64,000 nucleotides of DNA from Pirellulales bacterium (lineage in GTDB: Bacteria > Planctomycetota > Planctomycetia > Pirellulales > Lacipirellulaceae), in the NCBI GenBank assembly GCA_022448265.1, contig JAKVCC010000003.1, forward strand, positions 62,001 to 126,000, in the 5' to 3' direction. Each line of letters opens with the position of its first letter. Within the stretch, counting starts at the first letter, position 1. The notes beneath the pieces are model-generated. The model searched no databases. It saw only the letters and a program-made list of their open reading frames with translations, and was not told where the DNA came from. This document shows, piece by piece, positions 45,026 through 50,969 of this stretch. The translations under genes and the position numbers were made by a program.

Positions 45026-47554
<2,529 letters not shown>

Positions 47555-47600: not shown

Positions 47601-47969
47601 TCAATCAATATCTCCGATGCGAAACCTAATTTGTTTGATCTTGGCCTCCGGCAAGGCCCCTTGAAGTCGGGCCAGCAGCTCCTCTTTGTGAAAAGTAAGC
47701 TCCTGAATCACCAGCGAGTTCGCTACCAACACTTCAAATACGCCTCTCCGCAGGCTGCCCACGCGTGTTGACGGAGCCATAGCGCCTGCCGCCGCCTGCC
47801 AGGCCGTCTCGCGCTCGCCGGTCGCCCGTATCTGGGCATATCCTCTTCGCTGAACCAGTTGAGCGATAATGTTGTCAATCCGCTTCGGACGTCTAGCAAA
47901 AAACCAGCGCCGGTGCTGTGCTCGGCGCCGTTCCAGGTCCTCAAACTGTTTGCCGGTCAACTTGCTCAT
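47601..47969 (-). CDS. dciA: DUF721 protein, probable helicase loader DciA
   Basis: A 122-residue DUF721 (DciA-type) protein. DciA loads the replicative helicase DnaB in bacteria without DnaC or DnaI. Conserved core: RIDNIIAQLVQRRGYAQIRATGERETAWQAAAG, then GSLRRGVFEVLVANSLVIQELTFHKEELLARLQ. ATG 47969 overlaps the dnaN stop in ATGA, so it is translationally coupled to the sliding clamp. In other genomes a DUF721 gene often follows recF; here recF is absent and DciA takes its place between dnaN and gyrB. Confidence 0.82.
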   Translation of the reverse strand: MSKLTGKQFEDLERRRAQHRRWFFARRPKRIDNIIAQLVQRRGYAQIRATGERETAWQAAAGAMAPSTRVGSLRRGVFEVLVANSLVIQELTFHKEELLARLQGALPEAKIKQIRFRIGDID

Positions 47970-49081
47970 CGGTCTCGAGCCAACGGCATGATCACGTAGC
48001 CATAGCCGTCGTCCGTGCGGCATACGGCTGCACTCTCGGAATCTTTCACTTCAAATGCAAACGCTTTTTCTGCATCAAGCACCTTGAGAAAATCAATGAT
48101 AAAGCGTGGGTCGAGTGTAACGGTCAACTCATCGCCGTCGTAACCGATAGGTAATTCCACTCGGGCTTGCCCGACTTCAGCCGCTTTACCCGAAAGAACC
48201 AACATGCCGTCACCAAACGTAAAATCGACTCCACGACTCTCTTCACTGGTAACAATTGCTGCCTGACGTACAGCCGCATGGGTGCCACCCACCGCCAGAT
48301 CAAGACTGACACCACCACCCTGTTCGGGAAAAACCTTTTTCCAATCTGGAAAACGCCCCTCCAGAAGCCTGGCTGAAATTGTTGCCTTCGCTGAGTGTAC
48401 CAGAAATTCGTTTCCCTTTACGGCAACCTTAATCTCGGTATCGCCAGGAGAGACAGCTCGTTCGATAAGTTGCATCGCCCGCGTGGGCACAATTGTTGCT
48501 TGCGCCGGGTCAATGACAGAACCTGTTGTGCCAATCGGGCCGGTCATCTTGGCCAAACGGCGTCCATCAGTGCCGATAGCGGTTACTTCGGACTGGTCAA
48601 ACTCTAGCTTGACCCCCCCCAGCGCATAGCGGCTGCTTTCGTTGTCTGTGGCAAACACCGTGCGGCGGATCAACTCTCGCAGCAATCGTGCGGGTATTTC
48701 ATGATAGTTATTTTCCTCAAACGCCGGCACCCGCGGGAATTCTTCCGGATCCTCTGCCGACAGACGGAACTGGCTCCGTTCCCCGCGGATGATTACGCCC
48801 TGACCGTCTGATTCCAAATGCAACGTCTCATCAGTGCCCTCTCGCAAGATCGACCCAAAACGAGCCACCGAAAGCACCACTACTCCCGCCGTTTGCACGT
48901 CTACACCCTCTACGTGGTAGCGAATGCCAACCTCAAGGTCCGTGGCAGACAACACCGCGCCTTCTTCGGATACCTCCAATTTGACATTCTGTAAAATCGG
49001 CTTGGGGCTACGCGCCGGCGCTACAGACGCCACAGTTTGAAAGGCCTGCAGCAGTTGTTCGCGATCACATGATATCTTCAT
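47966..49081 (-). CDS. dnaN: DNA polymerase III beta subunit (sliding clamp)
   Basis: A 371-residue sliding clamp. The start MKISCDREQLLQAFQTVASV at 49081 matches the usual N-terminus. Three clamp domains are visible, with PILQNVKLEV, the second-domain start FRLSAEDPEEFPRVPAFEENNYHEIP, ESSRYALGGVKLEF, FEVHSAKATISARLLEGRFPDWKKVFP-type sequence, and the typical C-terminal MPLARDR. An alternative start TTG 49165 in the same frame would add a Thr-rich 28-residue extension and is preceded by a perfect AGGAGG with 5-base spacing, so the start is not settled. It lies downstream of the dnaA-like gene and overlaps dciA by four bases. Confidence 0.95.
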   Translation of the reverse strand: MKISCDREQLLQAFQTVASVAPARSPKPILQNVKLEVSEEGAVLSATDLEVGIRYHVEGVDVQTAGVVVLSVARFGSILREGTDETLHLESDGQGVIIRGERSQFRLSAEDPEEFPRVPAFEENNYHEIPARLLRELIRRTVFATDNESSRYALGGVKLEFDQSEVTAIGTDGRRLAKMTGPIGTTGSVIDPAQATIVPTRAMQLIERAVSPGDTEIKVAVKGNEFLVHSAKATISARLLEGRFPDWKKVFPEQGGGVSLDLAVGGTHAAVRQAAIVTSEESRGVDFTFGDGMLVLSGKAAEVGQARVELPIGYDGDELTVTLDPRFIIDFLKVLDAEKAFAFEVKDSESAAVCRTDDGYGYVIMPLARDR

Positions 49082-49170
49082 AGTCCGACCTGTCTTTAGT
49101 GTGACGTTTTCATTTTCAATATCGCCGGTTTTAGTGGTAGTTCCGGCAGTTGTGGTAGTAGACAACGGAA

Positions 49171-49176
49171 CCTCCT
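49171..49176 (-). promoter_or_regulatory. Perfect Shine-Dalgarno AGGAGG upstream of dnaN
   Basis: AGGAGG on the minus strand, 5 bases before TTG 49165, which is in frame with dnaN but 84 bases before its canonical ATG at 49081. It decides between two dnaN starts or indicates a leader extension. Confidence 0.6.
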
Positions 49177-49475
49177 AGGGGGTAGGACGGTTTTTTGATG
49201 AGGCAGGTTGTTATATAAAAGTTTCTAAGATAGTAGCAGTAGTAATAAGAAGTGAAATATTGTCGAAAACAGCTTAGTATTAAGCCTAAGTAGGTTATGT
49301 AATCTCACCTTAGTCGTTTTGGTTGGCGGTGGAAGAACTGTTGGTGGAGTGTTGTTTATTTGTTGGTATTGTGTCGACGAGTATGAACCTAGCACTTAAG
49401 GCCTCCAGGTGACTGTAAGGCGCCCCTGGGCGAGCCACGTAGCGAACAAGGTTTCGACAGGTTTTGCACCCCATG

Positions 49476-49497
49476 CCTGCTGAGGAAGCAGGTCCTC
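49476..49497 (-). promoter_or_regulatory. Two overlapping, mutually exclusive hairpins
   Basis: CCTGCT (49476-49481), GAGGA, AGCAGG (49487-49492), TCCTC (49493-49497): the first and third blocks pair, and the second and fourth also pair, so the two stems exclude each other. Such an arrangement is seen in attenuators and antiterminators. It lies in the dnaA-dnaN spacer. Confidence 0.45.
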
Positions 49498-49513
49498 CAT
49501 AGCTCTGTTCTAC

Positions 49514-49541
49514 CGATGTTGAACATCAAGGTTCATCATCG
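49514..49541 (-). terminator. Stem-loop just downstream of dnaA
   Basis: GATGTTGAAC (49515-49524) and GTTCATCATC (49531-49540) pair with one mismatch around a 6-base loop, and the flanking C/G pair extends the stem. It lies 26 bases after the dnaA stop. No U-run follows on the minus strand. Confidence 0.45.
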
Positions 49542-49566
49542 TGTTCCGCTGAAACGGTGAATGCGT

Positions 49567-50805
49567 TCAGGCGGCAGTCAAGATGCGTCGCAAGTTCTCC
49601 AAGGTTTGTTGTGTAGCGGTGTCGGCAAGCAGCAGTTTTTCGATATTTCGATGTGCGTGCATCATAGTTGTATGATCACGGCCACCTAAGCCTTTACCAA
49701 TTTGTGCGTAGCTGAGATCCGAGAGACTACGGGCCAAATAAACCGTGATGCCACGGGCGTAAACGAGCGACTTGCGCCTTCCAGGGCCACGCAAGGCGGT
49801 TTGGGTCAGCAAAAAATAGCGAGCCGTCAAGGCGACAATGTCCTTCAGCGAAGCCTGTGGCCCAGTGCCCCTCGCCTCGCCCCTGCTTGTTGCCGAAGCG
49901 GGTTCCGTCTCCGAGCGTTCTGTCGTCCCCTGCCGCACACGACTGCCCGAGGTGAAGCCAGGGGAGAAATCCGGCGCTGGATCCGCCAAGGCCAGCGGTG
50001 CCCCTTGGCGCGCAAGGCCGCTTTTGCCCCTAGCGAGGGTGGTTCGCCGCTCAATGTCTCGCCGCGCGCTGGCGGCGCGCTGGAGAATGAGGTCCCGTGA
50101 TTCTGGGCCGGGAGGACGCAAGCGCACGACCAGTCCACCCGCAAGTCGATCGCGCAACCCGGCCTCCAGCCGGTGCTGGATAGCGGGTGGCTCTTGGGTG
50201 GTGAGCACGACCAGGCTTCCGGCTTCCTCTAAAATATCGAGCGCATCGCGCAGCTCGCGCTGTACAGAATCGCTCTTGGGGAGGCGATGGATGTCTTCCA
50301 CGATCAATAGCTGCAAGGAGAACAGCTGTTGTCGAAAACCGCTTAAGTTGCCATCGCTATGGGCTGCCCGCACCTGCCGCCCGAAATCGGCAGCCGTAAA
50401 ATAGCCGGCCGCACTGGAACTCGCCAATTGCGCCCAGCGGCGGGCAAGGCCGCGTGCCAACAAGGTTTTTCCGGTGCCCGTGGCGCCCAGGAGGACCAGC
50501 GGATGGAACATGGTCGGGGCCGCCGACAAGGGGTCGCCCGAAAGTAATTGTTGCAAGATGGGAACGGCCAGCCGATTTTCAGTCCCCGTAACGAACGACG
50601 TTGGCCCAATGCCGCCAGGCCCCGTCTTGAATGCGTCTTTCCCGCCGCGATTAGTGCCAATGTTCTTGCCCGCATCTGCGAGCGCCGGATCGGCTACACC
50701 ACTGCCAATACCGACTTCGCCACTACCAAACAAACTGCTATCAGCGCAGAGCGGAGCGCTCCAATCGCAACTTGGCAATTCGATTTGCGTTACCCCGTAA
50801 ACCAC
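49567..50805 (-). CDS. dnaA: DnaA-like replication initiator with atypical AAA+ lid
   Basis: A 412-residue DnaA-like protein (GTG 50805; a TTG at 50859 would add 18 residues). The AAA+ core is present: LVLLGATGTGKTLLARGLARRW (Walker A), QLLIVEDIHRL (Walker B), LVVLTTQEPP (sensor I), and DRLAGGLVVRLRPPGPESR, whose Arg matches the arginine finger. The DNA-binding domain IV at the C-terminus is complete: ARGITVYLARSLSDLSYAQIGKGLGGRDHTTMMHAHRNI. The helical lid with the sensor II motif (usually NVRELEGAL) is missing, replaced by ~75 low-complexity residues (49852-50076). Domain I is not recognisable; a low-complexity N-terminus of ~70 residues stands in its place. It lies upstream of dnaN, so it is probably the chromosomal initiator. 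Confidence 0.85.
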   Translation of the reverse strand: MVYGVTQIELPSCDWSAPLCADSSLFGSGEVGIGSGVADPALADAGKNIGTNRGGKDAFKTGPGGIGPTSFVTGTENRLAVPILQQLLSGDPLSAAPTMFHPLVLLGATGTGKTLLARGLARRWAQLASSSAAGYFTAADFGRQVRAAHSDGNLSGFRQQLFSLQLLIVEDIHRLPKSDSVQRELRDALDILEEAGSLVVLTTQEPPAIQHRLEAGLRDRLAGGLVVRLRPPGPESRDLILQRAASARRDIERRTTLARGKSGLARQGAPLALADPAPDFSPGFTSGSRVRQGTTERSETEPASATSRGEARGTGPQASLKDIVALTARYFLLTQTALRGPGRRKSLVYARGITVYLARSLSDLSYAQIGKGLGGRDHTTMMHAHRNIEKLLLADTATQQTLENLRRILTAA

Positions 50806-50969
50806 AATGGTTCCGTCCAGATAGGTACTTGAACTCAAGAAAAAAACACGCAGCCGCAACAGCTGTTGGAAGCAGAAGAATTCGATTTTACACAGGCTGT
50901 TTTAGGAGGAAAAACGAAACTCCGATTCTATCCGATTTCGCTTCAGAAAGGGAGGAGTTAAACCCCGTT

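Follow-up and report, generated by a model that had tools for sequence, protein, structure and literature searches.

Planctomycetota have an old pair of DnaA paralogues, and the DnaA protein encoded beside dnaN in this genome is one of the two. As far as aligned residues indicate, the two kinds have been eroded in complementary ways within the order: the dnaN-linked kind keeps the DnaA-box reader and the arginine finger and has mostly lost sensors I and II and the residues that bind single-stranded DNA, whilst the full-length kind keeps the ATPase and the single-strand-binding residues and has a changed box reader. We call the dnaN-linked gene dnaA2 and its product DnaA-N; 'the window' is the whole 64,000-nucleotide stretch analysed, and codes beginning with f, G and L denote families, genomes and loci, respectively.

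The dnaA2 locus and its product

The first-pass annotation of the window had put this gene at the usual dnaA locus, and the gene order found there (NifS-like gene, dnaA2, dnaN, dciA, gyrB) bears this out; the presence of dciA in this operon has already been reported for Planctomycetes (excerpt of PMC5109545).

50970..52148, minus strand: NifS-like class-V aminotransferase (PF00266), upstream of dnaA2
49567..50859, minus strand: dnaA2, dnaN-linked DnaA paralogue, 430 codons counted from the first TTG
49166..49566, unstranded: dnaA2-dnaN intergenic region, probable oriC
47966..49165, minus strand: dnaN
47601..48023, minus strand: dciA, helicase operator (PF05258, E 9e-12)
45026..47521, minus strand: gyrB

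The start of dnaA2 is probably the GTG at 50803-50805, which would give a protein of about 412 aa, because the alignment of same-genus relatives to the window protein begins only at about residue 19-20. The protein was matched by Pfam Bac_DnaA (PF00308) over residues 88-245 with 69.1 bits, passing the cut-off of 23, and by Bac_DnaA_C (PF08299) over residues 339-406 with 70.6 bits, again above the cut-off; NCBIfam TIGR00362 matched in two stretches with 167.9 bits, below its equivalog cut-off of 343.9. DnaA proteins were also the best matches in a sequence search of the PDB and ranked top when Foldseek was run with the AlphaFold2 model (mean pLDDT 76.4 overall, about 97 in domain IV), with domain IV lying at an rmsd of 0.7-0.8 A from the DnaA-DBD 3pvp at 40% identity.

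50770..50805, minus strand: short N-terminal peptide VVYGVTQIELPS at the place of domain I; on visual inspection many orthologues have one like it
50110..50598, minus strand: AAA+ core, residues 88-250 (PF00308, 69.1 bits, and AlphaFold2 model)
50464..50487, minus strand: Walker A GATGTGKT, K178 present
50287..50310, minus strand: Walker B region LLIVEDIH, E-D replacing D-D
50146..50148, minus strand: arginine finger R238 (E. coli R285)
50023..50106, minus strand: surviving first lid helix, residues 252-279 (lid profile and AlphaFold2 model)
49849..50022, minus strand: segment standing for the remaining lid and sensor II, residues 280-337 (coil in the AlphaFold2 model)
49570..49848, minus strand: domain IV, residues 338-430 (PF08299; Foldseek)
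49654..49686, minus strand: classical DnaA-box-binding signature GGRDHTTMMHA

Among the motifs listed at first pass, Walker A, the arginine finger and the box-binding domain stand, whereas sensor I does not, the alignment placing Q at the position of E. coli D269, and Walker B is present only in the E-D form. In addition, the V211-type residue (E. coli numbering) is R. Domain I had been called unrecognisable, and rightly, as DnaA_N found no match in the window protein up to E 1. The N-terminal peptide region is predicted to form strands at residues 17-20 and 23-27, and many DnaA-N proteins, inspected by eye, carry a peptide of roughly the form GV..I.LP at the domain I position. The stretch ahead of the Walker A region, measured from the first start codon, is 57-229 residues long in dnaN-linked copies vs 152-459 in distant ones.

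Loss of the lid and sensor II

The absence of the lid and sensor II that had been noted in the window protein is real, with the exception that the first lid helix is still there. A lid profile built from 11 same-genus relatives matched the window protein over profile positions 1-34 only, up to residue 267 (L040, among the 11, matches 1-83), and the AlphaFold2 model has a helix at 252-279 followed by residues 280-337 without secondary structure, the block pLDDT over 281-330 being 31-53. About 58 residues thus stand where the lid past its first helix, with sensor II, would be. To call this segment low-complexity is fair wording for a mild bias, G, S, R and A together making up 51% of residues 267-336 vs 40% of the entire protein.

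A frameshift or sequencing error concealing the lid was ruled out: across the six frames of 49500-50400 the lid profile found nothing else above 0 bits, and the sister genome G003 (L041) is also without the second lid half. Most same-genus relatives of DnaA-N retain the lid, with a degenerate sensor II stretch such as GPAPQLLRAL; the second half is absent in the window species and in the sister species G003, and in G037, from a different family, the lid remnant is shorter still. Since most relatives keep a lid with a degenerate sensor II and the loss is partly common to G003, the lid loss in the window is, on these comparisons, the extreme of a trend in which the dnaN-linked copy sheds its ATP-sensing parts.

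A second, full-length DnaA and the spread of the pair

The same genome (87 contigs, 97.3% complete, 3.2% contamination) encodes a second DnaA of 503 aa, whose gene encloses positions 45565-46032 (minus strand) of contig C8. It scored 138.5 bits with PF00308, 77.1 bits with PF08299 and 24.7 bits with DnaA_N against a cut-off of 24.6, and came slightly below the TIGR00362 cut-off (338.6 vs 343.9 bits). Walker A and B, sensor I, the arginine finger, sensor II and domain IV are all present, and a single unbroken alignment to B. subtilis DnaA covers the AAA+ core, lid, sensor II and domain IV. Contamination is an unlikely source of this gene because the tree described below groups its product with that of the same-genus locus L003 at 100/99. 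The first-pass annotation had taken the dnaN-linked gene as probably the main initiator and had named a second canonical dnaA elsewhere as evidence that would speak against its account; we looked for such a gene and found it on contig C8, and with a full-length DnaA in the same genome the main-initiator proposal is unsupported. Its further idea, that the window protein may rely on a partner, we keep, the full-length DnaA encoded elsewhere being the candidate.

Both kinds of DnaA occur in 52 of 59 related genomes, a tally of profile matches that takes in the window's own genome and also G031, whose full-length copy is a fragment at a contig end. Four genomes have the full-length kind only (G012, G022, G041 and G058; 77-96% complete) and three the dnaN-linked kind only (G009, G013 and G034; 76-93% complete). 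dnaN adjoins 52 of the 55 dnaN-linked copies, that of the window included, and the other three (L056, L068 and L081) lie at contig ends; within about 1.5 kb of the full-length copies dnaN was found in none of 31. Six dnaN-linked copies that sorting by score had first placed among the distant ones were reassigned by locus of origin, and four rows were dropped, namely L002 (the window itself), L063 (the G031 full-length fragment) and L091 and L092 (duplicates of L012 and L009). More widely, at least two PF00308 matches were found in 63/79 genomes of the class and 75/98 of the phylum, some of the extra matches being other AAA+ proteins.

In a tree of 79 DnaA proteins (L305, a near copy of L304, was omitted) distant copies from across the phylum group together (30 rows, support 91/69), as do those from the class (21 rows, 99/98); the class's short dnaN-linked copies form a further group (24 rows, 100/90), with basal nodes weak and several dnaN-linked branches very long. 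The window protein pairs with that of G003 at 100/88, and the f33 copies L314 and L316 fall outside both groups. The window gene is the dnaN-linked member of an old paralogue pair. As to position, nine one-contig genomes of the order (G006, G023, G025, G027, G029, G030, G035, G040 and G051) have their full-length dnaA in the far half of the chromosome, at 0.28-0.49 of its length from the dnaN-linked copy; in the f22 genomes G060 and G084 the distance is within 0.1.

In the f7 genomes G041 and G058 (L334 and L335) dnaN stands without an adjoining dnaA2, and in G058 a gene resembling, by eye, the NifS-like one directly precedes dnaN; the absence of DnaA-N beside dnaN in this family is apparently a natural loss. 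Contig C34 of G058 also carries a 201-aa open reading frame (L331:1399-2004, minus strand) with a full-length-type domain IV (RRSHSTV) but without an AAA+ match, which is probably a gene fragment.

Complementary residue loss

Residues were compared by alignment to E. coli DnaA in 34 of the 56 full-length copies (the 30 best-scoring PF00308 loci, the window genome's own copy, two from f7 and one from f2), a sample that, consisting mostly of best-scoring loci, is biased to intact copies, and in 54 dnaN-linked copies, the window's included, comprising all but L068, which has undetermined bases at its end. The P-loop lysine K178 is present in every copy of both kinds (34/34 and 54/54) and the arginine finger in nearly all (32/34 full-length, 50/54 dnaN-linked). 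The remaining ATPase positions diverge: Walker B DD is kept in 33/34 full-length vs 12/54 dnaN-linked copies, sensor I D269 in 30/34 vs 2/54 and sensor II R334 in 34/34 vs 15/54. A strict regular expression for sensor II, which had returned 0 dnaN-linked copies, was discarded, since the alignment shows the arginine in those 15.

Domain IV has the opposite pattern. R399, D433, H434 and T435 are positions that we take to be the DnaA-box contacts from the E. coli domain IV structure. R399 is found in 53/54 dnaN-linked vs 9/34 full-length copies (K in 24), D433 in 54/54 vs 0/34 (S in 33) and H439 in 48/54 vs 0/34 (S in 31), and R432, D433, H434 and T436 are invariant in all 54 dnaN-linked copies.

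For residues that hold DnaA-trios in B. subtilis, several of them with roles as given in an excerpt of PMC10721633, we used our own mapping to E. coli numbering, a 21-residue offset. The E183 position is E in 34/34 full-length copies vs 0 of 51 listed dnaN-linked ones; that of I190 (E. coli V211) is L, V or I in 34/34 full-length copies and Ile in 4/54 dnaN-linked ones (two unlisted). K222 is conserved in 34/34 vs 11/54, and losses are milder at R202 (34/34 vs 39/54) and E228 (34/34 vs 46/54). Beyond the order the pattern is less clean: four short copies from f22 have N instead of D at 433, and of the 18 distant copies of the class and phylum, the 14 with a signature readable by our pattern have N (11), K (2) or H (1) at this position.

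A probable origin between dnaA2 and dnaN

Cumulative GC skew along 240 of the approximately 300 kb of the window's own contig has both its minimum and its largest change-point at contig position 111125, which is window position 49125, 41 bases into dnaN (skew -0.019 to the left, +0.056 to the right), and no rise was seen on the 110 kb contig that carries the full-length dnaA. The turning point is looser in G006, where dnaA2 is 19 kb away from the minimum and 46 kb away from the change-point, with a rise of 10.1 vs 2.2 in the stretch around the full-length dnaA. In G051 it is ambiguous, the minimum being about 2 kb from dnaA2 and the largest rise about 83 kb off, and the rise at the full-length dnaA (3.6) being similar to that at dnaA2 (3.25). 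Coarser sampling of G006 and G040, with 20 stretches of 20 kb per genome, was too noisy.

49261..49269, minus strand: DnaA-box-like TTTTCGACA, one mismatch to TTTTCCACA
49231..49248, minus strand: six DnaA-trio-like triplets TTATTACTACTGCTACTA, 12 nt after the box

A BUS-type element has been defined as a DnaA box followed within 16 bp by at least three DnaA-trios (PMC8287927, section 14 part 1), with box-to-trio spacers peaking at 10-13 bp (PMC8287927), and the window's intergenic region holds TTTTCGACA, 12 nt and six triplets. Across 52 dnaA2-dnaN intergenic regions the 8-mers GTGGAAAA and AGTAGTAG recur in 29 and 16, respectively (maximum in ten shuffles, 7), TTTTCCACA with at most one mismatch is present in 37 (exact in 13; shuffles 4.65 for at most one mismatch), and triplet arrays are enriched. 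The region is, on these signals, the probable oriC. By eye, the boxes of these 52 regions frequently have CRACA motifs ahead of them, spaced at about 11 bp.

Boxes with at most one mismatch also lie within 350 bp upstream of 18/33 full-length dnaA genes (exact in 5; shuffles 2.2), in the window's own genome at -191. Inspection by eye upstream of full-length dnaA (L001 and many of L003-L032) gave an AACA-NN-TTTTCCAC box with, about 20 nt past it, an A-tract and T-tract AAATTTTTT. In the two f7 genomes no box with at most one mismatch was found upstream of dnaN (two-mismatch matches numbered one and three), and none, even with two mismatches, in the 450 bp upstream of the full-length dnaA. The joint absence of DnaA-N and the boxes in these two genomes fits DnaA-N as the reader of the boxes, although it counts as one evolutionary event at most. 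A genome-wide search of 20 genomes with the pattern RACANNTTTTCCAC gave 38 matches, of which five lie, by reading, within about 1 kb of either dnaA gene, vs 22 matches for the reversed-pattern control; this weak support does not enter the counts given above.

Possible roles of DnaA-N

Beyond the observed paralogue pair, residue losses, boxes with trios and origin-like position in the window's own genome, we infer box binding by DnaA-N, contact between the two proteins and a division of labour between them. The reading that we favour, with confidence a little short of even, is that DnaA-N acts as a box-bound partner or platform for the full-length DnaA. At oriC, DnaA-N would bind boxes of the TTTTCCAC type, and the full-length protein, supplying the intact ATPase, the single-strand-binding residues and domain I, would build an ATP-dependent filament on the DnaA-trios upon this platform and open the DNA. 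According to an excerpt of PMC10721633, the B. subtilis structure has seven protomers in one filament, two of which bind boxes through domain IV, with arginine fingers directed from the box side to the single-strand side, and domains I-II are dispensable for strand separation. To seed a filament, a box-bound subunit must have a box reader as well as an arginine finger, and DnaA-N has both; subunits on the single strand must have the residues that grip the trios, and the full-length copy keeps these. We infer either a divided initiator or a box-bound regulator.

Several observations weaken the platform reading. Both box-bound B. subtilis protomers also hold the first trio through domain III (excerpt of PMC10721633), and DnaA-N, without the trio residues, is by analogy probably unable to grip it likewise, a point that lowered our confidence in this reading. 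Two f7 genomes apparently manage without DnaA-N and three genomes (G009, G013 and G034) show the dnaN-linked copy only; the full-length DnaA could itself read the boxes upstream of its own gene (18/33); and the N at 433 in f22 short copies, the looser skew of G006, the ambiguous skew of G051, the weak basal nodes and the long dnaN-linked branches all detract from it as well.

The main rival, which we regard as a real possibility and not much less likely than the divided initiator, makes DnaA-N a pure regulator with no opening role, sitting on boxes both at oriC and ahead of the full-length dnaA and so repressing or timing initiation and dnaA/dnaN transcription. The presence of box sites at both places, the eroded sensors and single-strand-binding residues, the absence of domain I and the apparent dispensability of DnaA-N in f7 are all consistent with such a protein, but the retention of the arginine finger (50/54) and the P-loop (54/54) goes beyond the needs of a plain DNA-binding repressor. 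The retention of a classical box reader, together with the position of the gene at the probable origin, could instead suit the first-pass view that DnaA-N is the main initiator at oriC, with lid loss tolerated or made good by a partner and the full-length copy doing other work. ATP sensing is not always needed, given that the DnaA proteins of H. pylori, S. elongatus and D. radiodurans opened DNA whether ADP or ATP was present, the arginine finger being required (PMC8287927). Alanine at the I190-type residue abolished opening in that study, however, and this residue is lost in DnaA-N, whilst the full-length copy keeps the checked ATPase and single-strand-binding residues and domain I, and is the only copy retained in f7; we consider this view improbable. 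Long branches and scattered motif losses might, lastly, point to a decaying relic or an assembly artefact, but R432, D433, H434 and T436 are identical in 54/54 copies, the open frame and dnaN linkage hold throughout the sampled order, and the sister G003 is likewise without the second lid half, which leaves this explanation very improbable. The box-bound platform remains our preferred reading.

Relation to known systems and significance

DnaA-N shares with canonical DnaA (TIGR00362; E. coli, B. subtilis) an AAA+ core with P-loop and arginine finger, the domain IV residues R399, D433, H434 and T435, and a gene beside dnaN and a box-trio element. It differs in having no recognisable domain I, no lid past the first helix and no sensor II, in the sensor I change from D to Q and of the V211-type residue to R in the window protein, and in the second full-length DnaA of the genome. 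Hda is likewise a DnaA-derived AAA+ protein without parts of DnaA. Hda is not known to have domain IV, which is the best-conserved part of DnaA-N, and the Hda profile TIGR03420 gave only 44.3 bits on the window protein vs a cut-off of 194.8, ending at profile position 175 of 226.

Two dnaA copies per genome are already known. Chlamydiales (Waddlia) also have two per chromosome, with the difference that neither lies at the GC-skew minimum (excerpt of PMC2878342), and Acidaminococcus fermentans has two that, unlike the present pair, are adjacent (excerpt of PMC4403523); the excerpts of both papers make no mention of copies that have lost motor and reader residues in complementary fashion. The box, 12-nt spacer and trios of the window's intergenic region match the BUS arrangement (PMC8287927; excerpt of PMC10721633), the difference being that in the present pair one DnaA carries the residues that grip the trios and the other the classical box reader. 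Among the matches listed in a search of the open-licence PMC literature we found no two DnaA proteins with divided functions in Planctomycetes, nor the complementary losses of the planctomycete pair.

For annotation, it is the eroded DnaA gene that occupies position 1 in six one-contig genomes of the window's order (G006, G023, G025, G029, G030 and G035), and in a recent planctomycete description the chromosomes were re-oriented so as to begin at 'the dnaA gene' (excerpt of PMC13315336).

More broadly, Planctomycetota, or at least the window's order, might use a two-protein initiator, an extension that we hold to be rather unlikely as it stands. A box-tethered DnaA-N would provide address reading and an arginine finger that caps and seeds the filament of a second DnaA, which in turn would give ATP sensing, single-strand capture and helicase contact; the DnaA-N of the window species would then be a box reader linked flexibly to a lidless AAA+ cap. 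The common view of DnaA is of a single protein that finds, opens and loads the origin, and known systems hold box reading and single-strand capture in one polypeptide. If these tasks are split onto two paralogues in this phylum, box reading and single-strand capture would become testable apart.
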